Assembly: GCA_020723325.1 (NCBI GenBank)
Contig: DYJD01000019.1
Location: 1 to 64,000, forward strand
DNA from: Desulfosudis oleivorans
Lineage (GTDB): Bacteria > Desulfobacterota > Desulfobacteria > Desulfobacterales > SURF-7
Length of the DNA stretch: 64,000 nucleotides
Reading direction: 5' to 3'
The position numbers and the translations under genes are program-made. Positions 28,680 through 37,726 of this stretch are shown piece after piece (positions within the stretch are counted from its first letter, which is position 1; every line of letters begins with the position of its first letter). A model generated the notes under the pieces. It made no database searches and was not told the DNA's origin. It saw only the letters and a list, made by a program, of their open reading frames with translations.

Positions 28680-28719
28680 TTGACACATTGGATTTGATCG
28701 TTTATCGTCGATTAACGAT
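28680..28719 (+). promoter_or_regulatory. Promoter and overlapping ArsR-type operator of the hgc operon
   Basis: TTGACA (28680-28685) and TATCGT (28703-28708) are 17 bases apart. Over the -10 lies a 23-bp near-perfect palindrome at 28697-28719, half-site ATCGTTNATCG, with 10 of 11 base pairs matching. A repressor bound there would block the promoter. The next gene encodes an ArsR-family repressor, so autoregulation of arsR-hgcA-hgcB is inferred. Confidence 0.72.
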
Positions 28720-28744
28720 TAGATAATATGTCACGGAGAGAATC

Positions 28745-29077
28745 TTGAAAACCTGTTGTAAGCCACGGCCAACCAACGCTGCCCCCATGGATGCCGACCG
28801 GTTTGCCGGCATATGCAAGGCCTTGGCCCACCCGGCCCGCGTTAAGATTGTCAACCATCTCAAAGAATTGAACCAATGCATTTGCGGACAGATCGTGGAT
28901 GTTCTGCCCCTGGCCCAATCCACGGTCAGCCAGCATCTAAAAATTTTAAAAGAATCAGGACTAGTAAAAGGAACCATCGAGGGGCCGCGGACCTGTTACT
29001 GCATCGATCGGCAAGTGCTGGCTGAATTCAAAACTATGGCCATGCAACTTGGCGAAAAGGACCGTATAGATGAATAA
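28745..29077 (+). CDS. ArsR/SmtB-family transcriptional repressor
   Basis: A 110-residue winged-helix regulator. The core reads ICKALAHPARVKIVNHLKEL, then CICGQIVDVLPLAQSTVSQH and LKILKESGLVKG, the usual ArsR recognition-helix region. Cysteines at CCKP (4-5), CIC (about 40-42) and TCYC near the wing could bind a thiophilic metal(loid), though the canonical CVC-box differs slightly. The TTG at 28745 has GGAGAG upstream; an ATG at 28787 is an alternative but would remove the CC pair. The stop overlaps the hgcA start by eight bases, so translation is coupled. It probably controls the hgc operon through the palindrome at 28697; the inducer is not shown. Confidence 0.9.
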   Translation: MKTCCKPRPTNAAPMDADRFAGICKALAHPARVKIVNHLKELNQCICGQIVDVLPLAQSTVSQHLKILKESGLVKGTIEGPRTCYCIDRQVLAEFKTMAMQLGEKDRIDE

Positions 29078-30281
29078 ACCTGTAAAACAAAATTGCGGCT
29101 GCGGTTTAGAAAATACGCAACCATCCCACAACCTTCTCCGTGAAATGCTGCCCATGGACCGGCCGCCGGTTAAGGATGAGCCATGTTGCGGGCCGCCGCC
29201 CGGCCCGCCCAGCGATCCGAATGAGCGACCCGGATATCGGCTGTGCTCCTTTGTGCAAGGATTTATGCCTACTCCGGTGGGACCAGTGCCCCGGATTAAA
29301 ACCTTACTGGACACACGGGACAAACTCGGTACATGGAATGTTCGTATGGGTTTCGGCCGCAATGATTACAAGGTTGCGCCGGGACTCTATGCCGTGGGTG
29401 ATCCCGCTGCCGAGGCCCCGGTTTTGGTAACGGCCAATTACAAACTCAGTTTTGATCACGTCCGTGAATCCCTCGCCGGCATGGATGCTTGGCTTCTGGT
29501 GTTGGATACCCATGGTATCAACGTGTGGTGCGCTGCCGGCAAAGGTACCTTTGGAACCGCGGAGCTGGTGCAACGAGTTCTTAAGACCGGTCTGGCCCAG
29601 GTGGTGCGGCATCGGCGCTTGATCCTGCCCCAATTGGGGGCCACCGGCGTGGCCGGACACAGGGTAAAAAAAGAATGCGGCTTTGAAGTGATTTGGGGAC
29701 CTGTAAAGGCTGCGGATATCAGAGCCTTCCTATCGTCCGACCACCGATCCGAGGTTGCCATGCGGCGCGTTACCTTTACTTTTTCCGAACGGTTGGTCCT
29801 GGTACCGGTGGAGATCACTCTCTTGCGCAAGCATTTGGTCTATACCCTGGCCGTCCTTTTGTTTCTCTCCGGCATCGGTCCCCACATCTTTTCATGGCCG
29901 GCAGTATGGCAGCGTGGAGTTCTGGCTGTCGCAGCCGTGGCCATGGGAATTGCAGCCGGTTGCATCGTCGTACCGGTCCTGCTGCCCTGGATCCCGGGCC
30001 GGGCCTTTGCGCTAAAAGGAATTTTCGCCGGCCTGTTTTTGGGAACATTTCCGGCAGCCGTTCACTGGAATGATTCTTCGATATCTTATTGGTCGGGACC
30101 GGCCTTGCTGCTTTTAACAACTGCTTTGAGTTCGTACTTGGCCATGAATTTTACCGGCTCCACACCCTTCACATCGCCTTCAGGAGTGGAAAAAGAGATG
30201 CGTCGCTATATGCCGGTGCAGGCCGGGATGGCCGTAATGGCATTGTTCTTATGGATCGGAAGCGCCTTTCTGATGAAATAG
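29070..30281 (+). CDS. hgcA: Mercury methylation corrinoid protein HgcA
   Basis: A 403-residue membrane corrinoid protein that transfers a methyl group to Hg(II). The diagnostic cap-helix motif is present as NVWCAAGKG (151-159, with Cys154 as the cobalt ligand), inside a CdhD-like corrinoid domain (about 55-235). Five hydrophobic segments follow (about 257-275, 283-305, 313-330, 342-360, 384-401), matching the HgcA membrane domain. The segment FTGSTPFTSPSGVEKEM between the last two is also typical. The N-terminus is longer than in the HgcA I recall (about 340) and Cys/Pro-rich (CGCG, then CCGPPPGPP). hgcB lies 39 bases downstream. Confidence 0.95.
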   Translation: MNKPVKQNCGCGLENTQPSHNLLREMLPMDRPPVKDEPCCGPPPGPPSDPNERPGYRLCSFVQGFMPTPVGPVPRIKTLLDTRDKLGTWNVRMGFGRNDYKVAPGLYAVGDPAAEAPVLVTANYKLSFDHVRESLAGMDAWLLVLDTHGINVWCAAGKGTFGTAELVQRVLKTGLAQVVRHRRLILPQLGATGVAGHRVKKECGFEVIWGPVKAADIRAFLSSDHRSEVAMRRVTFTFSERLVLVPVEITLLRKHLVYTLAVLLFLSGIGPHIFSWPAVWQRGVLAVAAVAMGIAAGCIVVPVLLPWIPGRAFALKGIFAGLFLGTFPAAVHWNDSSISYWSGPALLLLTTALSSYLAMNFTGSTPFTSPSGVEKEMRRYMPVQAGMAVMALFLWIGSAFLMK

Positions 30282-30320
30282 CGCTGCAAATCATAAAACC
30301 TTCATTTTGGTGATTGAAGA

Positions 30321-30611
30321 ATGAAATCCTTACGCTATCTGGAAAACGTGGTCACCTTGGCCCTTGATGAAGACAAATGTGTGGGTTGCGGGATATGCAC
30401 CCAAGTGTGCCCCCACGGTGTTTTGGTCTTGAGGAACCGCAAGGCACAAATTGTGGATTTGCACGGCTGTATGGAATGCGGCGCCTGCGCAAACAACTGT
30501 CCCACCAGCGCCCTGGCGGTGACCCCAGGGGTGGGCTGCGCCAGTTATATCATCCAATCCTGGATCAAGGGCAAGGAGAATAGTTCCTGCGGATCACAAG
30601 GTTGCTGTTAA
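30321..30611 (+). CDS. hgcB: Mercury methylation ferredoxin HgcB
   Basis: A 96-residue 2[4Fe-4S] ferredoxin that reduces the HgcA corrinoid. Two CxxCxxCxxxCP motifs (Cys20/23/26/30 and Cys50/53/56/60) are perfect. A further Cys73 (GVGCASY) and a C-terminal cysteine group (SSCGSQGCC, Cys90, 95, 96) are also present. The lone Cys and the terminal Cys pair are hallmarks of HgcB and absent from ordinary ferredoxins. With hgcA directly upstream this predicts methylmercury-forming capacity. Confidence 0.95.
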   Translation: MKSLRYLENVVTLALDEDKCVGCGICTQVCPHGVLVLRNRKAQIVDLHGCMECGACANNCPTSALAVTPGVGCASYIIQSWIKGKENSSCGSQGCC

Positions 30612-30642
30612 CCGATGAATAGAAGAAGGGATTAGAAAAAAT

Positions 30643-31164
30643 ATGCTACTCGAAAATTATACTCTTGAAATATTCAACTCCAAATGCCAACCGGGTGTTA
30701 TGGCTGTGCACTGTTTCGCCCACCTTGACCAGGATATCAGCCAAGTCCTGCCTTATTTAAATACCACTTTGGGCGGATTCGAATATCTTGTCGATCCGCC
30801 GGCCCTCACACTTCGATCCCAGGGCAAGCTGATGACGTTGCATGGGCGTAAAATTGCCATCAATGCTTTAAAGGATGAACAGGAAGCCCAAAAAATCGTT
30901 GAATGGCTTAAAAATGAGATTAACGAAGCCTGGGAATGCAGAGACCGCATCGTTCCATGTTTTCACGGCAAACCAAAGCCTATATTAATCGAAATTTTAA
31001 AGCTGCTGCCCAAAACCAACTGCAGGAAATGCGGTCAGCCCACTTGCATGGTGTTTGCCGCCCAGGCAATGGAAGGAGGATACGGCGCGGAGAACTGCCC
31101 GGAACTGACTGATCCGAACCGGGAGAAACTGACCACCTACCTCTCTGGGTTTGATTTTGATTAA
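30643..31164 (+). CDS. FeS4-domain protein of the hgc operon
   Basis: A 173-residue soluble protein. Residues 1-100 form a domain I do not recognise (IFNSKCQPGVMAVHCFAHLD, then LNTTLGGFEYLVDPPALTLR). The C-terminal part has the four-cysteine FeS motif found in CO dehydrogenase/acetyl-CoA synthase corrinoid proteins and RnfB: TNCRKCGQPTCMVFAAQAM...NCPE (Cys127, 130, 135, 152). It starts 31 bases after hgcB on the same strand, so it is probably translated from the hgc transcript. In corrinoid systems such domains deliver electrons for reductive activation. A similar role for HgcA is an inference only. It may instead be an unrelated passenger. Confidence 0.75.
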   Translation: MLLENYTLEIFNSKCQPGVMAVHCFAHLDQDISQVLPYLNTTLGGFEYLVDPPALTLRSQGKLMTLHGRKIAINALKDEQEAQKIVEWLKNEINEAWECRDRIVPCFHGKPKPILIEILKLLPKTNCRKCGQPTCMVFAAQAMEGGYGAENCPELTDPNREKLTTYLSGFDFD

Positions 31165-31181: not shown

Positions 31182-31580
31182 TCACGCAAAATAATCATGA
31201 TATTCAGGCGGAATCACCGCTTTGTTCACCTGGAATAATTCAATGAGCACATTGTCCGGTGCCGGCACCATGATGTATTTCATATACAGCAGATCGACAA
31301 CGCTTTTGGTGAAACTGATCCCCGCTTCTTTCAGGCGCTGATAGTCCCGCCCCACATCATCGGTCTGGATGCCGAAATGGTGGATGCTTCCCGGCCCAGG
31401 GGTTTTGGGCGGTTGATCATAAAAATGTATGCGACCGGTGCCCACCCTCATGAAGACATTGCGGGCGCCGGCCACCTCCAGATCCAGTATAATCTCGCCG
31501 CCGAAAAAATCTTGATAAAATTGCAGGCTTTTTTGAATGTCGGATGCAAAAAGATGTACATGATGAACATGATGAAACAT
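31182..31580 (-). CDS. Glyoxalase/VOC superfamily protein
   Basis: A 132-residue vicinal-oxygen-chelate fold protein (FHHVHHVHLFASDIQKSLQFYQDFFGG, then HHFGIQTDDVGRDYQRLKEA and VLIELFQV). Metal-ligand positions are visible: His in HHVHLF, His in IHHFGIQ and Glu in IELF. Substrate unknown; relatives include methylmalonyl-CoA epimerase and glyoxalase I. The ATG at 31580 has AGGAGG five bases upstream. It follows the HxlR regulator gene by 10 bases, so the two form an operon. Confidence 0.9.
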   Translation of the reverse strand: MFHHVHHVHLFASDIQKSLQFYQDFFGGEIILDLEVAGARNVFMRVGTGRIHFYDQPPKTPGPGSIHHFGIQTDDVGRDYQRLKEAGISFTKSVVDLLYMKYIMVPAPDNVLIELFQVNKAVIPPEYHDYFA

Positions 31581-31590
31581 GCTTTCCTCC

Positions 31591-31986
31591 TTATTCTTGT
31601 TTATTTTTAGCGGCTGATGCCTTATCCGGCTTTTTCCGTTCACGGGACCTGACCGGCTTCATTCTTACGGCCCATTCTTCGGCCCAGATATCGAGTTGCT
31701 CAATAATCCGCCCCAGGGAGATGCCGTCTTCCGTGATGACATACCCTTCCCGCTCCCGGAGTTCTATGATCCCGGCCTCGCGCAGGTTCGACAGGCGCGC
31801 ATTGAGCACCGTAGGGGAAATGTCGCCGCAAAATTTCTGCAGAGCCCTGAAGCTGCTGGGACCGTTCTGGTGCAGTTCCCATAAAATCCGCAAAGACCAG
31901 CGCCGGCCCAATAAATCGAGCACAGCCATTATAGGCCGTCCGGTTTGAGAGCCCCTGACTTTCATGCCTGGTTTGGGTGTTGCCAT
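31591..31986 (-). CDS. HxlR-family transcriptional regulator
   Basis: A 131-residue winged-helix protein of the HxlR/YodB type: AVLDLLGRRWSLRILWELHQ, then FRALQKFCGDISPTVLNARL and SNLREAGIIELRE. A single Cys in FCGDIS is near the position that senses aldehydes or quinones in some members (which carry it near the N-terminus), so sensing by it is speculative. AAGGAGGG precedes the ATG at 31986. An inverted repeat at 32004-32037 lies immediately upstream and may be its operator, giving autoregulation together with the VOC gene. Confidence 0.9.
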   Translation of the reverse strand: MATPKPGMKVRGSQTGRPIMAVLDLLGRRWSLRILWELHQNGPSSFRALQKFCGDISPTVLNARLSNLREAGIIELREREGYVITEDGISLGRIIEQLDIWAEEWAVRMKPVRSRERKKPDKASAAKNKQE

Positions 31987-32885: not shown

Positions 32886-33590
32886 CTACCAGTTGATCTC
32901 TTTTTTGAAAATCGGTCGACAGATTCGGCCGATTGTGGACCGGGAAACGGCGGAGATGAAATCAGCCACTTTGACAAGATCCTTTTTTCCAGGAGCAGCT
33001 TCCACTCCGGAACTGACATCCACGGCGTCAGGCTCGGCGTCGGCTATGGCCTGCCGGACATTATCCGGGGAAAGGCCGCCGGCCAGGACAAGGGGGTGGG
33101 ACTTGCCGAAAGCCCGGGCCGCCTTCCAGTCCCAGGTCAAGGCGTTGCCGCCGGGCAGCTTGCCGCCGCTGCATTCCACTAAAAAGGCCGAGGCGCTATA
33201 AGTATCCACGGTCTCCATGGATGGATTGCCGCCGATGAACAGCGCTTTGATCACCGTGATCTTTTCAGCAGCCAGGCACGCCGTAAGTTCAGGACTTTCC
33301 CGGCCATGCAACTGAACCGCACCCAGGCCGCATTGGGATACCACGGTCATGACCGCCTCATGGGAAGGATTCACGAACACGCCCACGGTGACAACTTCCC
33401 GCGGCACGGCGGCCGTAATTGCTCTGGCCTGTTCCAGACTCACATTACGGGGGCTCTTTGGGAAAAAAACCAGTCCCACGGCATCTGCTCCCAGTTCGGC
33501 ACAGGCCCGCGCCTGCTCTATATCCGTCAGGCCGCAGATCTTGATTTGCGGCCGCCGGCTGGTTCCCGTCAATTCATTTTCGTTTTGCAT
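32886..33590 (-). CDS. trpF: Phosphoribosylanthranilate isomerase
   Basis: A 234-residue TIM-barrel enzyme converting PRA to CdRP in tryptophan synthesis. IKICGLTDIEQARACAELGADAVGLVFFPKSPRNV carries the catalytic Cys. GAVQLHGRES, LVECSGGKLPGG (Glu-Cys where Asp is usual), LAGGLSPDNV and AVDVSSGVEAAPGKKD (phosphate loop) follow. The start overlaps the end of trpC by 17 bases. It is the last gene of the operon; trpB and trpA do not follow. The C-terminal tail after ISAV is slightly longer and basic. Confidence 0.96.
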   Translation of the reverse strand: MQNENELTGTSRRPQIKICGLTDIEQARACAELGADAVGLVFFPKSPRNVSLEQARAITAAVPREVVTVGVFVNPSHEAVMTVVSQCGLGAVQLHGRESPELTACLAAEKITVIKALFIGGNPSMETVDTYSASAFLVECSGGKLPGGNALTWDWKAARAFGKSHPLVLAGGLSPDNVRQAIADAEPDAVDVSSGVEAAPGKKDLVKVADFISAVSRSTIGRICRPIFKKEINW

Positions 33591-34380
33591 TCTCGATGTT
33601 CTCTCCCAGCAAAGATTGCAAAAATCGCCTTGGATCATCGGCCCGCACCAGGCTCTCTCCGATCAGGAAATTATGAATCCCGCATTTCAGGTTGACCTCG
33701 ATGTCCTTGCGGTCCGAAATACCGCTGGCAGCCACCGCAGTTTGATGGGGTCGCATTCCGGCCACCATGCGCGTAGCGGTGTTGATATCCGTATCAAAAG
33801 AGCTCAGGTTGCGATTGTTGATACCGATCAAACGCGCGCCGGCCTGATGGGCGTTTTCCAGGTCCTTTTCCGAATGGACTTCCACCAGGCAGTCCAGGTC
33901 CAGCTCCTGACCAAGGGCGAGATAATCCCGCAACTGATCAGTGGTTAAGATGCGCACGATGAGCAGGACCGCGTCGGCCCCCAACGCAGCGGATTCATAC
34001 ATCTGATAGCTGGAAATGGTGAAATCCTTGCGCAGGACCGGCAGGGAAACGGCGGCCCGGGCCTGTTTCAAATCGTCGACACTGCCCTTGAAATAGGCGG
34101 TTTCGGTTAGCACGGAAAGGGCCGCGGCCCCGCCTTCCTCATATTGCCGGGCCAAGGATGCCGGATCCAGCTCCGGACAAATGTCGCCCTTGGAGGGCGA
34201 GGCCCGCTTGATTTCGGCAATGATATGAATCCCTGGTTTTTCCAGGGTGGCGGCAAAAGGTCGTTTATCACGCTTGACCATGGCCGCCTCCCATAAGCGG
34301 GCTTCCGGCATCCGCTGTTTGGCTTCGGCGATTTCCCGCCGTTTATGCTCCACGATTATTTTTAGAAAATCTTTGGCCAT
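33574..34380 (-). CDS. trpC: Indole-3-glycerol phosphate synthase
   Basis: A 268-residue TIM barrel. AEIKRASPSKGDI carries the first catalytic Lys. ALSVLTETAYFKGS, LPVLRKDFTISSYQMYES, LIGINNRNLSSFDTD and AASGISDRKDI are all standard TrpC motifs, and the length is typical. It is separated from trpD by 57 bases that contain a heptad repeat array, unlike the overlapping junctions elsewhere in the operon. It overlaps trpF. Confidence 0.97.
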   Translation of the reverse strand: MAKDFLKIIVEHKRREIAEAKQRMPEARLWEAAMVKRDKRPFAATLEKPGIHIIAEIKRASPSKGDICPELDPASLARQYEEGGAAALSVLTETAYFKGSVDDLKQARAAVSLPVLRKDFTISSYQMYESAALGADAVLLIVRILTTDQLRDYLALGQELDLDCLVEVHSEKDLENAHQAGARLIGINNRNLSSFDTDINTATRMVAGMRPHQTAVAASGISDRKDIEVNLKCGIHNFLIGESLVRADDPRRFLQSLLGENIENAKRK

Positions 34381-34396
34381 AAAACACCATAAAAAG

Positions 34397-34437
34397 CAAT
34401 TAGGAATTAGGAATTACGAATTAGGAATTGTGGAATT
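34397..34437. repeat. AATTCNN heptad repeat, copy 2 (inside the trp operon)
   Basis: Read on the minus strand it is a series of AATTCCT/AATTCGT heptads, the same family as 4595-4627. It occupies the trpD-trpC junction, immediately after the trpD stop codon, and so is transcribed with the operon. Confidence 0.75.
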
Positions 34438-35457
34438 CTATCCATTTTTTTGGGTGTATTCCGCCAGGGCGGAAAGTTTGGCGGCGGCGGCGCCGGAGTC
34501 CACGGATTCTGCGGCCTTTTTCAGCCCTTCTGCCAAATTGCCGGCTTGGTCGGCGGCCATCAGGGCCGCGGCGGCATTGAGCAGCACCACATCCCTTCGG
34601 GCACTTTTCTTGCCGGCGAGGATGTCGCGGGTAATGGCGGCGTTTTCAGCCGGCGTGCCGCCGGCCAGTTCAGCCGGTTCGGCCGGTTTTTCAAAAAACT
34701 GTTCCGGGTTGATATCATAGGTCTTAATCAAACCGTCTTTCAATTCCGCTACACGGGTGGGGGCGCATACGGAGATTTCATCCAGCCCGTCATGGCCGTG
34801 CACCACCAAGGCCCTTTTGGCGCCCAGCAGGCGCAGGGCCTGGGCGAACATTTCGGTCAGTTCCGGCGCAAACACGCCCAGCAGTTGACAGTTGGCCGCC
34901 GCCGGATTGGTGAGGGGGCCGAGCATGTTGAAAATGGAGCGCAGCCCGATTTCCTTGCGGGCCTTGGCAGCGTATTTCATGGCGCCATGATAAAGGGGGG
35001 CGAACAAAAAGCCGATGCCGATCTCGGCAATGGCTTCCTCGGTGATCTCCGGCTCAGTGGTGATTTTGACCCCCAGGGCCTCCAACAGATCGGCGCTGCC
35101 GCAGCGGCTGGAAATGGAACGGTTGCCGTGCTTGGCCACGGTCACGCCGCAGCCGGCCACCACAAAAGCGGTAGTGGTGGAAATATTAAAGGTGTTGGCG
35201 CCGTCGCCGCCTGTGCCGCAGGTGTCGATCACGGTGCCGGCCGAGGTCTGAACCCGCAAGGCTTTTTTGCGCATGGCCTGGGCAGCCCCGGCCAGTTCCT
35301 CAAAGGTTTCGCCCTTGGTGGACAGGGCGCCCATGAAGGCGCCGATCTGGGCGTCGGTGATTTCGCCGGAGAAGATATCGGTGATCATCTGGGACATCTC
35401 CGCATCCGACAGGTTTTTCCCCTTGATGATTTTACTGAGATTTTCCTTAAACGTCAT
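34438..35457 (-). CDS. trpD: Anthranilate phosphoribosyltransferase
   Basis: A 339-residue enzyme joining PRPP to anthranilate. TCGTGGDGANTFNISTTTAFV carries the PRPP-binding GTGGD loop. KHGNRSISSRCGSADLLEALG and IGIGFLFAPLYHGAMKYAA are typical. GLRSIFNMLGPLTNPA and VHGHDGLDEIS complete the family set. The ATG overlaps the trpG stop by four bases, so trpG-trpD translation is coupled; they are not fused as in some bacteria. Confidence 0.97.
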   Translation of the reverse strand: MTFKENLSKIIKGKNLSDAEMSQMITDIFSGEITDAQIGAFMGALSTKGETFEELAGAAQAMRKKALRVQTSAGTVIDTCGTGGDGANTFNISTTTAFVVAGCGVTVAKHGNRSISSRCGSADLLEALGVKITTEPEITEEAIAEIGIGFLFAPLYHGAMKYAAKARKEIGLRSIFNMLGPLTNPAAANCQLLGVFAPELTEMFAQALRLLGAKRALVVHGHDGLDEISVCAPTRVAELKDGLIKTYDINPEQFFEKPAEPAELAGGTPAENAAITRDILAGKKSARRDVVLLNAAAALMAADQAGNLAEGLKKAAESVDSGAAAAKLSALAEYTQKNG

Positions 35458-36050
35458 GGTTTGGTCTCCTTTGCATTGTAGTCTTCGGCGATCTGCAGGA
35501 AATTGCGCAGCAGGCGTTTTCCCACCGGGGTCATGATGGACTCCGGATGGAACTGAATCCCTTCCGTGGGATGGCTTTTGTGCCGGATGCCCATGATCTC
35601 GCCGTCATCTGCCTGGGAAGTGATTGTAAGGCAATCCGGCAGGCTCTCCTTCCGCACTGCCAAGGAATGGTAGCGCATGGCCTGGAAGGGCTTGGTGATG
35701 CCCTGGTAGATCTTTTGGCCGTCCGCGGTGACCATGGAGGTCTTGCCGTGCATCAGGTATTGGGCGGAAACCACTTCGCCGCCAAAGGCCTCGGCAATGG
35801 TCTGATGGCCGAGACAGACCCCCAGGATCGGCAGTTTCCCGGAAAAACGCTTGACCGTGGCAAGGGAAATGCCCGCCCCGGCCGGCCGGCCGGGGCCGGG
35901 TGAAATCACGATGCCGGTGGGCTTCCAAGCCGCCAGAGTTTCGACGTCCACGGCATCGTTGCGCACCACCTGCATGTCCGCGCCCAATTGCCCCAAATAT
36001 TGCACCAGATTATAAGTAAAGGAATCATAATTGTCGATCATCACGATCAT
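35454..36050 (-). CDS. trpG: Anthranilate synthase, glutamine amidotransferase component
   Basis: A 198-residue class I glutaminase. IDNYDSFTYNLVQYLGQLG, ISPGPGRPAGAG, ILGVCLGHQTIAEAFGG (nucleophile Cys in VCLGHQ) and GIQFHPESIMT (catalytic His and Glu) are complete. It supplies ammonia to TrpE; the same protein family can also serve PabA. The ATG at 36050 has AAGGAGA upstream; the frame extends to 36167 inside trpE without support. Confidence 0.97.
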   Translation of the reverse strand: MIVMIDNYDSFTYNLVQYLGQLGADMQVVRNDAVDVETLAAWKPTGIVISPGPGRPAGAGISLATVKRFSGKLPILGVCLGHQTIAEAFGGEVVSAQYLMHGKTSMVTADGQKIYQGITKPFQAMRYHSLAVRKESLPDCLTITSQADDGEIMGIRHKSHPTEGIQFHPESIMTPVGKRLLRNFLQIAEDYNAKETKP

Positions 36051-36066
36051 GATGGTTCTCCTTCCA

Positions 36067-37560
36067 CTAGGGTTCAACGCCGCAAACGAGCTCCAGGGCC
36101 CGCTGAATGGCTTTAGCCTTGTTGACCGTTTCCAGGCGCTCCCGTTCCGGATCCGAATCCGCCACAATGCCGGCCCCGGCCCGCACGATCAGGCGGCCTT
36201 TTTCAATACAGGCGGTGCGGATGGTGATGGCCAGATCCATGTTGCCGTTATAGGAAATGTAGCCCACGGCACCGCCGTAGGGTCCGCGGGGCTCCTTCTC
36301 CAGTTCGGCGATGACCTCCATGGCCCGGATCTTGGGGGCCCCGGACAGGGTGCCGGCCGGAAAGGTGGCGCTCAAGAGATCCCAGGCATCCTTGCCGGGC
36401 TGCATGTCGCAGCAGATGTTGGAGACCAGATGCATCACATGGGAATAGCGTTCCACAATCATCAGGTCCGTCACCTGCACTGTGCCGATTTCCGCCACCC
36501 GGCCGAGATCATTGCGCCCCAGATCCACCAGCATCAAATGCTCGGCCCGCTCCTTCTCGTCCTTCAACAACTCATCGGCCAGAGCCCGGTCTTCCTGTTC
36601 GGTCCGGCCCCGGGGCCGGGTGCCGGCAATGGGCCGCAGGGTGGCTACCCCGTTCTCAAGGCGCACCATGGTTTCCGGCGATGAGCCCACCAGGGCGATT
36701 TCATCCAATTGCATGAAATACAGATAGGGAGAAGGGTTGACATAACGCTGGGCCCGGTACAGGCTCAGAAGATCCGGCGGCGTATCGCACACAAAGGGCT
36801 GGGAAATCACGGCCTGAATGATGTCGCCGGCCTTGATGTAGGTCTTGGTCACTTGCACATGGGAGCGATAGTCTTCCTCTTCATGGAGGGGCGCAAGGGA
36901 GCAGACGGCCTGATTGCGTGGGCATTCATCCACGGCCATGGATTGTTCCATTTTTTTCAGCATGGCAGCCAAGCGCGCCTGGGCCGTGACATAGGCCTTG
37001 TCCGGGTCGCTGGCGTCCTTCTCCCCTTCCCCCAGAAACGTCACGGCCACACATAAAAGCGTGTTGCGGATGTTGTCAAAAATCAACAATTCATCCGGCA
37101 GAATGAAATGCGCCAGGGGTTTTTCCGGACTGAGCAGATTGGGAATCCGTTCAAAAAACGAGACCATCTCATAGGTGAGATAGCCCACCATCCCGCCCCA
37201 GAACCGGGGCAACCCCGGAATATCCGCCGGCTGATAGCGGCTCATCAGCTCCCGCAACACCGCAAGTGGTTTGCCGTCATGGGCGATTTTCGATACGGTC
37301 CCGTTTTTGGCCACCTCAACCTGGTCGCGAAAAACGCGGATATGACTGGCCGCGTTGGTTCCCAGAAAACTGTAGCGTCCCCATCTTTCGCCGCCCTCCA
37401 CGCTCTCCAGCAGAAAAATAGGGCCTTTGTGATAGAACTTCTTCAACAATGAAACCGGTGTTTCCATGTCCGCCAGGATCTCGACGCATACCGGGATGAC
37501 ATTGTGCTTTTGTGCCAGCCGCTGGAATTCGGCCTTTTCCGGAAATTGCTTCAGCAACAT
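36067..37560 (-). CDS. trpE: Anthranilate synthase component I
   Basis: A 497-residue chorismate-using enzyme. The N-terminal domain has the LLES...RWGRYSFLG segment used for tryptophan feedback. The C-terminal domain has GDIIQAVISQPF, ALVGSSPETMVR, RPIAGTRPRGRTEQED, LMLVDLGRNDLGRV, SHVMHLVSNI, TFPAGTLSGAPKIRAMEVI, GPYGGAVGYISYNGNMDLAI and VRAGAGIVADSDPERE. These identify anthranilate (not aminodeoxychorismate) synthase with good confidence. The ATG at 37560 is preceded by AAGGCGG. It is the first structural gene after the trpL attenuator. Confidence 0.96.
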   Translation of the reverse strand: MLLKQFPEKAEFQRLAQKHNVIPVCVEILADMETPVSLLKKFYHKGPIFLLESVEGGERWGRYSFLGTNAASHIRVFRDQVEVAKNGTVSKIAHDGKPLAVLRELMSRYQPADIPGLPRFWGGMVGYLTYEMVSFFERIPNLLSPEKPLAHFILPDELLIFDNIRNTLLCVAVTFLGEGEKDASDPDKAYVTAQARLAAMLKKMEQSMAVDECPRNQAVCSLAPLHEEEDYRSHVQVTKTYIKAGDIIQAVISQPFVCDTPPDLLSLYRAQRYVNPSPYLYFMQLDEIALVGSSPETMVRLENGVATLRPIAGTRPRGRTEQEDRALADELLKDEKERAEHLMLVDLGRNDLGRVAEIGTVQVTDLMIVERYSHVMHLVSNICCDMQPGKDAWDLLSATFPAGTLSGAPKIRAMEVIAELEKEPRGPYGGAVGYISYNGNMDLAITIRTACIEKGRLIVRAGAGIVADSDPERERLETVNKAKAIQRALELVCGVEP

Positions 37561-37599
37561 CGGTCCGCCTTTCTCTTTAAAAAAAGGTTCATGCCAATG

Positions 37600-37630
37600 A
37601 AAAAGGGCCGTGGGTTTTTCCACGGCCCTT
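37600..37630 (-). terminator. Second hairpin of the trp leader
   Basis: An 11-bp perfect stem (37603-37613 with 37620-37630, core GGGCCGTGG/CCACGGCCC) is followed on the minus strand by TTTTTC. It lies eight bases beyond the T10 run of the first terminator, 40 bases before trpE. Its 5' arm is complementary by six bases (CCACGG/CCGTGG) to the 3' arm of the first hairpin, so the two can interfere. Confidence 0.8.
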
Positions 37631-37726
37631 AAAAAAAAAACCGTGGGCTTGGAGCTGCCCACGGTTTGTCTGCTCTTTATGTTACCTTTGTCAGGTAGTC
37701 ATCCTGAAGGTTCCGCCGGCAAGCCC
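37631..37726 (-). promoter_or_regulatory. trp attenuator: terminator and competing antiterminator
   Basis: The first terminator is a 10-bp stem (37639-37648 with 37657-37666; AACCGTGGGC/GCCCACGGTT) with an 8-base loop, followed on the minus strand by ten T. Within the leader-peptide coding region, GGGCTTG (37726-37720), 16 bases after the Trp codons, is perfectly complementary to CAAGCCC (37651-37645). The latter spans the loop and 3' arm of the terminator. A ribosome stalled at the Trp codons would leave GGGCTTG free to open the terminator; one reaching the stop codon would mask it. This is a transcription-attenuation switch read directly from the sequence; the pairing was not energy-modelled. 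Confidence 0.8.

Follow-up and report, generated by a model that had tools for sequence, protein, structure and literature searches.

The hgc locus

The window, by which we mean the whole 64-kb stretch of DNA that was analysed, contains four co-directional genes in positions 28680-31164: arsR, hgcA, hgcB and a gene encoding an Fe-S protein with a PF04060 domain. An earlier reading of the same DNA from the sequence only had titled this interval arsR-hgcA-hgcB; the three genes that it named were found on the + strand as described, and the fourth gene, which lies within the same interval, had been left unnamed. The genes and other features of the locus are the following.

28680-28708, + strand: sigma-70-type promoter, with TTGACA at 28680-28685, a 17-nt spacer and TATCGT at 28703-28708 (consensus scan 10/12)
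28697-28719, + strand: ArsR operator-like dyad ATCGTTTATCGTCGATTAACGAT, 23 bp, with complementarity in 10 of its 11 pairs and an overlap with the -10 box
28745-29077, + strand: arsR, encoding an ArsR/SmtB repressor of 110 aa; the start codon TTG is preceded by a good Shine-Dalgarno sequence, GGAGAG (28735-28740)
29070-30281, + strand: hgcA, encoding a corrinoid protein of 403 aa with a predicted C-terminal transmembrane part (NF040863, PF03599, tree)
29184-29189, + strand: Cys39-Cys40 of the HgcA tail (DEPCCGPP), codons TGT TGC, 112 residues before the cap motif
29520-29546, + strand: cap-helix motif NVWCAAGKG, HgcA residues 151-159 with Cys154, as read from the sequence
30321-30611, + strand: hgcB, encoding a ferredoxin with two 4Fe-4S motifs, a GVGC cysteine and a C-terminal CC (NF040864)
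30643-31164, + strand: fourth gene, probably in the operon, encoding 173 aa with a C-terminal PF04060 Fe-S domain (42.6 bits)

The ATG of hgcA (position 29070) is preceded at about 8 nt by AAAGGA and lies before the stop codon of arsR (TAA, 29075-29077), giving an overlap of 8 nt between the two genes, which the sequence-only reading had described as translationally coupled. The start of hgcB follows the stop of hgcA after 39 nt, and the fourth gene follows hgcB on the same strand after 31 nt, with no terminator-like site found between these two. The overlap of arsR and hgcA, the close spacing of hgcB and the Fe-S protein gene and the lack of a terminator-like site after hgcB support an operon, in which the four genes would be co-transcribed. 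A convergent gene (31182-31643) follows the fourth gene. Still farther downstream, an ordinary set of trp genes (trpF, trpC, trpD, trpG and trpE, named from their sequence) was found on the minus strand at 32886-37662.

Identity of HgcA and HgcB

HgcA scored 450.5 bits (E 3e-135) against the NCBI equivalog model NF040863, for which the cut-off is 275 bits, with residues 73-400 matched to positions 1-324 of the 325 in the model. The match extends to the end of the model and includes the hydrophobic part, and it is on this profile match that the C-terminal membrane domain, which in HgcA is expected to have five helices, is predicted. HgcB scored 128 bits (E 9e-38) against NF040864 (cut-off 99 bits) and contains two 4Fe-4S motifs of the CxxCxxCxxxCP type (CVGCGICTQVCP and CMECGACANNCP), as well as a conserved cysteine in GVGC and a Cys-Cys at the C-terminus. 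Both proteins thus carry the motifs from which the sequence-only reading had recognized them, NVWCAAGKG in HgcA and the two 4Fe-4S motifs plus the terminal Cys pair in HgcB. By analogy, Cys154 of HgcA would be the lower cobalt ligand and the counterpart of Cys93 in the HgcA of Pseudodesulfovibrio mercurii ND132.

Fusion proteins that resemble HgcAB (NF043039, cut-off 285 bits) are composed of related corrinoid and ferredoxin modules, but they differ from the window HgcA in being fused, in scoring below the HgcA cut-off and in forming a separate group in the tree. We considered whether the window protein could belong to such a divergent, non-methylating HgcA-like family, in which case the organism would be no methylator. 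HgcA-like proteins that score below the HgcA cut-off do occur in this genome (C101:103367-104488 and C98:105543-106424) and, as fusions, elsewhere in the phylum. However, the window protein scored 450 bits as HgcA and only 206 bits against the HgcAB_like model, below the cut-off of the latter, and all functional cysteines are present. In a tree of 119 proteins it was placed inside the canonical HgcA group of 104 rows (support 93), apart from the HgcAB-like fusions (support 100), its closest relative being L049 (68% identity). We regard a non-methylating family as scarcely credible on this evidence. The profile search and the phylogenetic placement, both proposed with the sequence-only reading, therefore bear out its assignment, and with the conserved operator upstream of arsR (see below) they identify the locus as one that carries the methylation genes. 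Neither of the two outcomes named with that reading as contrary to it, an HgcA score under the cut-off or a missing cap-helix cysteine, was found. Formation of methylmercury by the organism is a prediction from these genes, since possession of hgcAB predicts methylation but falls short of proof.

The hgcAB pair as such is ordinary and fairly common: HgcA scored above the cut-off in 114 of the 395 sampled genomes of the phylum, and the present genome is one more in a well-described group. In ND132, control of hgcAB by ArsR is published: an upstream arsR is reported to be co-transcribed with these genes, with experimental confirmation (cited in PMC10349881 and PMC7438021), so the link between arsR and hgcA was already known from that strain and is not new here. 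It was also reported that hgcAB transcription in ND132 changes under arsenic (cited in PMC10349881), and the corrinoid mechanism by which HgcAB methylates Hg(II) was studied in the same strain (PMC7305189, PMC11588087). According to the work cited in these four papers, the ND132 system resembles that in the window in the two-gene corrinoid/ferredoxin pair, the cap-helix cysteine, the 4Fe-4S motifs and the pair of terminal cysteines, and in having an arsR-type gene upstream in the same direction. The comparison covered these features; besides them, the window has the Cys-Cys N-terminal tail and the fourth Fe-S gene.

The HgcA-like locus C101:103367-104488, which lies outside the window, forms together with the next gene a second, divergent pair, hgcA2-hgcB2 (L005 and L070; 178 and 84 bits, respectively). 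Its HgcA2 has an added N-terminal hydrophobic region, its HgcB2 ends in a CxCG tail, and the HgcA2 group forms a separate long branch in the tree. Among the sampled genomes, relatives of this pair were found only in G474 (75%) and G516 (52%), where a gene for a MarR-type regulator (named from its sequence) follows the pair. The third HgcA-like gene, C98:105543-106424 (L004, L071), also lies outside the window and is 50% identical to the second; it is apparently the product of an internal deletion that joined the membrane part of HgcA to an HgcB-like tail (GVGCLFIIIKEDILKL). Both paralogous loci score below the HgcA or HgcB cut-offs and are to be left out of any count of methylation genes.

The N-terminal tail of HgcA

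The long, Cys/Pro-rich N-terminus of HgcA had been noted from the sequence as unusual. Its length and its richness in cysteine were confirmed, but the feature is not peculiar to this protein, as it corresponds to a widespread Cys-Cys or Cys-Sec tail with a published motif. In three relatives (L047, L052 and L128) the distance from a Cys-TGA pair to the cap motif downstream is exactly 112 residues, as it is from Cys39-Cys40 in the window HgcA; for instance, DAPCUGPKPDPEAGVHERPGY of L047 aligns with DEPCCGPPPGPPSDPNERPGY of the window. The window gene is thus the all-cysteine variant, and no in-frame TGA, as a selenoprotein form would have, was found in its tail.

Among 104 distinct HgcAs surveyed, 37 have a frame whose opening lies 95-115 residues ahead of the cap motif and follows a stop codon that can be seen in the DNA; this upstream stop is TGA in 30 of the 37. 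When TGA is read as selenocysteine, the tail region contains Cys-Sec in 21 of 102 HgcAs and Cys-Cys in 39. Because the relatives have a Cys-TGA tail, many short forms of HgcA would open after the UGA; the shorter forms with which the sequence-only reading had contrasted this HgcA are probably, for a large part, gene models that start there. Such gene models would be truncated and lack the conserved thiol/selenol tail.

Selenoprotein forms of HgcA (CU) and HgcB (GVGU) were described by Haft and Gwadz 2023 (cited in PMC11588087), and both are tabulated in PMC13188914. The selenoproteins correspond to the window proteins in the position of the tail in HgcA and in the GVGx position of HgcB; the window proteins differ in having cysteine at both sites, although the genome encodes selA. 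The presence of selA did not discriminate between the two tail types, as it was found in all of the 42 genomes tested, which makes it of no use for testing the Cys-Sec reading. The tail probably handles metal, whether Hg(II) or a different thiophilic ion, by binding it or handing it on.

The fourth gene

Residues 116-164 of the fourth protein match the N-terminal Fe-S domain (residues 6-54) of the large subunit of the corrinoid/Fe-S protein CFeSP (CdhE/AcsC, PDB 2h9a), and residues 100-222 of HgcA match the C-terminal corrinoid domain (residues 318-440) of the same subunit. HgcA and the fourth protein taken together thus resemble the CFeSP large subunit in having a corrinoid and an Fe-S domain, but here each half is a polypeptide of its own and HgcA has in addition a predicted membrane part. 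The AlphaFold model of the fourth protein had a mean pLDDT of 85.8, and a fold search among solved structures returned no significant full-length match, the best hit (E 0.019) being the CFeSP Fe-S domain.

Close relatives of the fourth protein (about 50-68% identity) are widespread in the phylum and are usually encoded away from hgcA. Homologues of ACR3, ArsC or ArsM were found within 1.5 kb at 18 of 29 loci of these relatives, versus 2 of 30 hgcA loci. Since the relatives mostly lie in arsenic islands, we take the fourth protein for an arsenic-island protein that here follows hgcB. Its gene was found beside hgcA in one other sampled genome only, the MAG G077 (8% contamination), where it is placed divergently. 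Its position in the present locus may therefore be accidental. For both reasons, the location of the relatives and the rarity beside hgcA, it was rejected as a regular partner of hgc.

The gene could then be a neighbour without relation to hgcAB, a remnant of an arsenic island since lost, and be co-transcribed with them by position only. The occurrence of the family in many genomes that lack hgcA and the near-absence of other cases of adjacency are in line with this, as is the absence of ACR3, ArsC and ArsM from the 64-kb window; on the other hand, the gene is on the same strand at a short distance from hgcB with no terminator-like site in between, and its Fe-S domain is the one used by CFeSP and is absent from HgcA. 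We consider the chances of such an accidental neighbour to be about even.

The family in itself (L086-L114) is a conserved family of 173-aa proteins in the arsenic-resistance islands of the phylum, with PF04060 at the C-terminus and an uncharacterised N-terminal domain.

ArsR, promoter and operator

ArsR matched PF01022 (49.6 bits) and NF033788 (69 bits, above the cut-off of 55), and its cysteine pairs, CICG and TCYC, are kept in most of the arsR-hgcA loci that were compared. Matches of the protein to Csa3, obtained with PADLOC, look like generic winged-helix similarity and were set aside.

The best -10 candidate upstream of arsR, TATCGT, falls within the dyad. No second site like this dyad occurs in the genome (7.2 Mb) when up to 3 mismatches are allowed. 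Among 103 other hgcA loci, 18 match it at 19-22 of its 23 bases, and 16 of these 18 have ArsR; most of the 18 sites also have a TTGAC box ahead of the embedded TATCGT, with much the same spacing. A match of at least 19 of 23 bases was found at 16 of 25 hgcA loci that bear arsR versus 2 of 78 without it (Fisher p 1e-10, uncorrected for relatedness). Shuffle tests of the dyads at single sites, which covered part of the loci, were mostly non-significant locus by locus; the operator signal lies in the conservation across loci. A literature search, which took in neither Haft and Gwadz 2023 nor Gionfriddo 2023, returned nothing relevant on this operator. The metal-responsive control of hgcA that the sequence-only reading had proposed from the coupling to arsR gains support from this conserved predicted operator.

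An order-wide scan with the consensus yielded 35 sites in 33 of 242 genomes (32 besides the source genome), and a control with the reversed pattern over the same 242 genomes yielded none. Upstream of hgcA lie 28 of the 35 sites, and a 29th (in G537) precedes arsR-hgcA-hgcB with a broken hgcA. Two others are directly upstream of arsM-arsR operons (L213:1935-1957 in G616 and L214:2926-2948 in G555), and the remaining sites precede an arsR-permease pair (G550), a lone arsR (G575) and an arsR at a contig end (G501), with one unassigned site in G411. The scan is partly circular because the consensus came from hgcA loci, some of them in the same genomes; this circularity does not account for the arsM sites, for the empty result of the control or for the almost complete lack of further sites in the genomes. 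The distribution fits one ArsR clade with one predicted operator that would serve mainly hgcAB and occasionally arsenic operons.

Three individual loci deserve mention. In G537 (L212:2047-3385), hgcA lacks most of the corrinoid domain including the cap helix, and arsR and hgcB look intact. In G566 and G471 (L147 and L154), the operator lies immediately before hgcA with no arsR in between, and the repressor may be encoded elsewhere.

The operator before arsM-arsR in G616 and G555 links the regulation of hgcAB to that of arsenic methylation and raises the question whether the operon, as a member of an arsenic regulon marked by ArsR, the operator and the Fe-S protein, serves primarily in arsenic handling, with an arsenic species as the native substrate and mercury methylation as a side activity. 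The arsenic-resistance genes that adjoin the relatives of the fourth gene and the arsenic-induced changes in hgcAB transcription in ND132 (as cited in PMC10349881) point in the same direction. Regulation by arsenic is, however, no proof of an arsenic substrate, as the inducer may stand for sulfidic, metal-rich conditions; moreover, most sampled hgcA loci had no ArsR in the stretch examined, and the locus has the HgcB and the cap cysteine that mercury requires. A primary role in arsenic handling thus appears unlikely to us.

A model for the operon

As a whole, the locus is in all probability best explained as a canonical mercury-methylation operon, arsR-hgcA-hgcB with an added Fe-S protein gene, under control of ArsR. 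In this operon, ArsR would sit on its own promoter, at the dyad across the -10 box, and thereby repress transcription. Binding of a thiophilic metal or metalloid to its cysteine pairs, with As(III) as the most probable ligand, would release ArsR and open transcription of the whole operon. HgcA would be held in the membrane and carry the corrinoid, with the cobalt ligated by the cap-helix cysteine; HgcB would reduce the corrinoid and use its two terminal cysteines to present Hg(II), which would then receive the methyl group. The Cys-Cys tail of HgcA probably takes part as well, in binding or handing over Hg(II) or some other thiophilic ion.

A further-reaching proposal is that hgcAB is wired into the arsenic regulon in the order, with one ArsR clade and operator for arsM and hgcAB, that the fourth protein is the reductive activator of the HgcA corrinoid and together with HgcA rebuilds the CFeSP large subunit from its two halves, and that the native role of the system lies in arsenic or general thiophilic-metal stress, beyond mercury alone. 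We hold this combination to be quite improbable.

The more restricted conclusion, that the canonical operon described above is controlled through a conserved arsenic-type DNA switch that also occurs at arsenic-detoxification genes, is probably correct. The operator bears on the native function and the inducers of hgcAB, and in that respect it matters more than the identification of one more methylator: an operator common to hgcAB and arsM may allow prediction, from sequence, of those methylators that would be switched on by arsenic-type stress.
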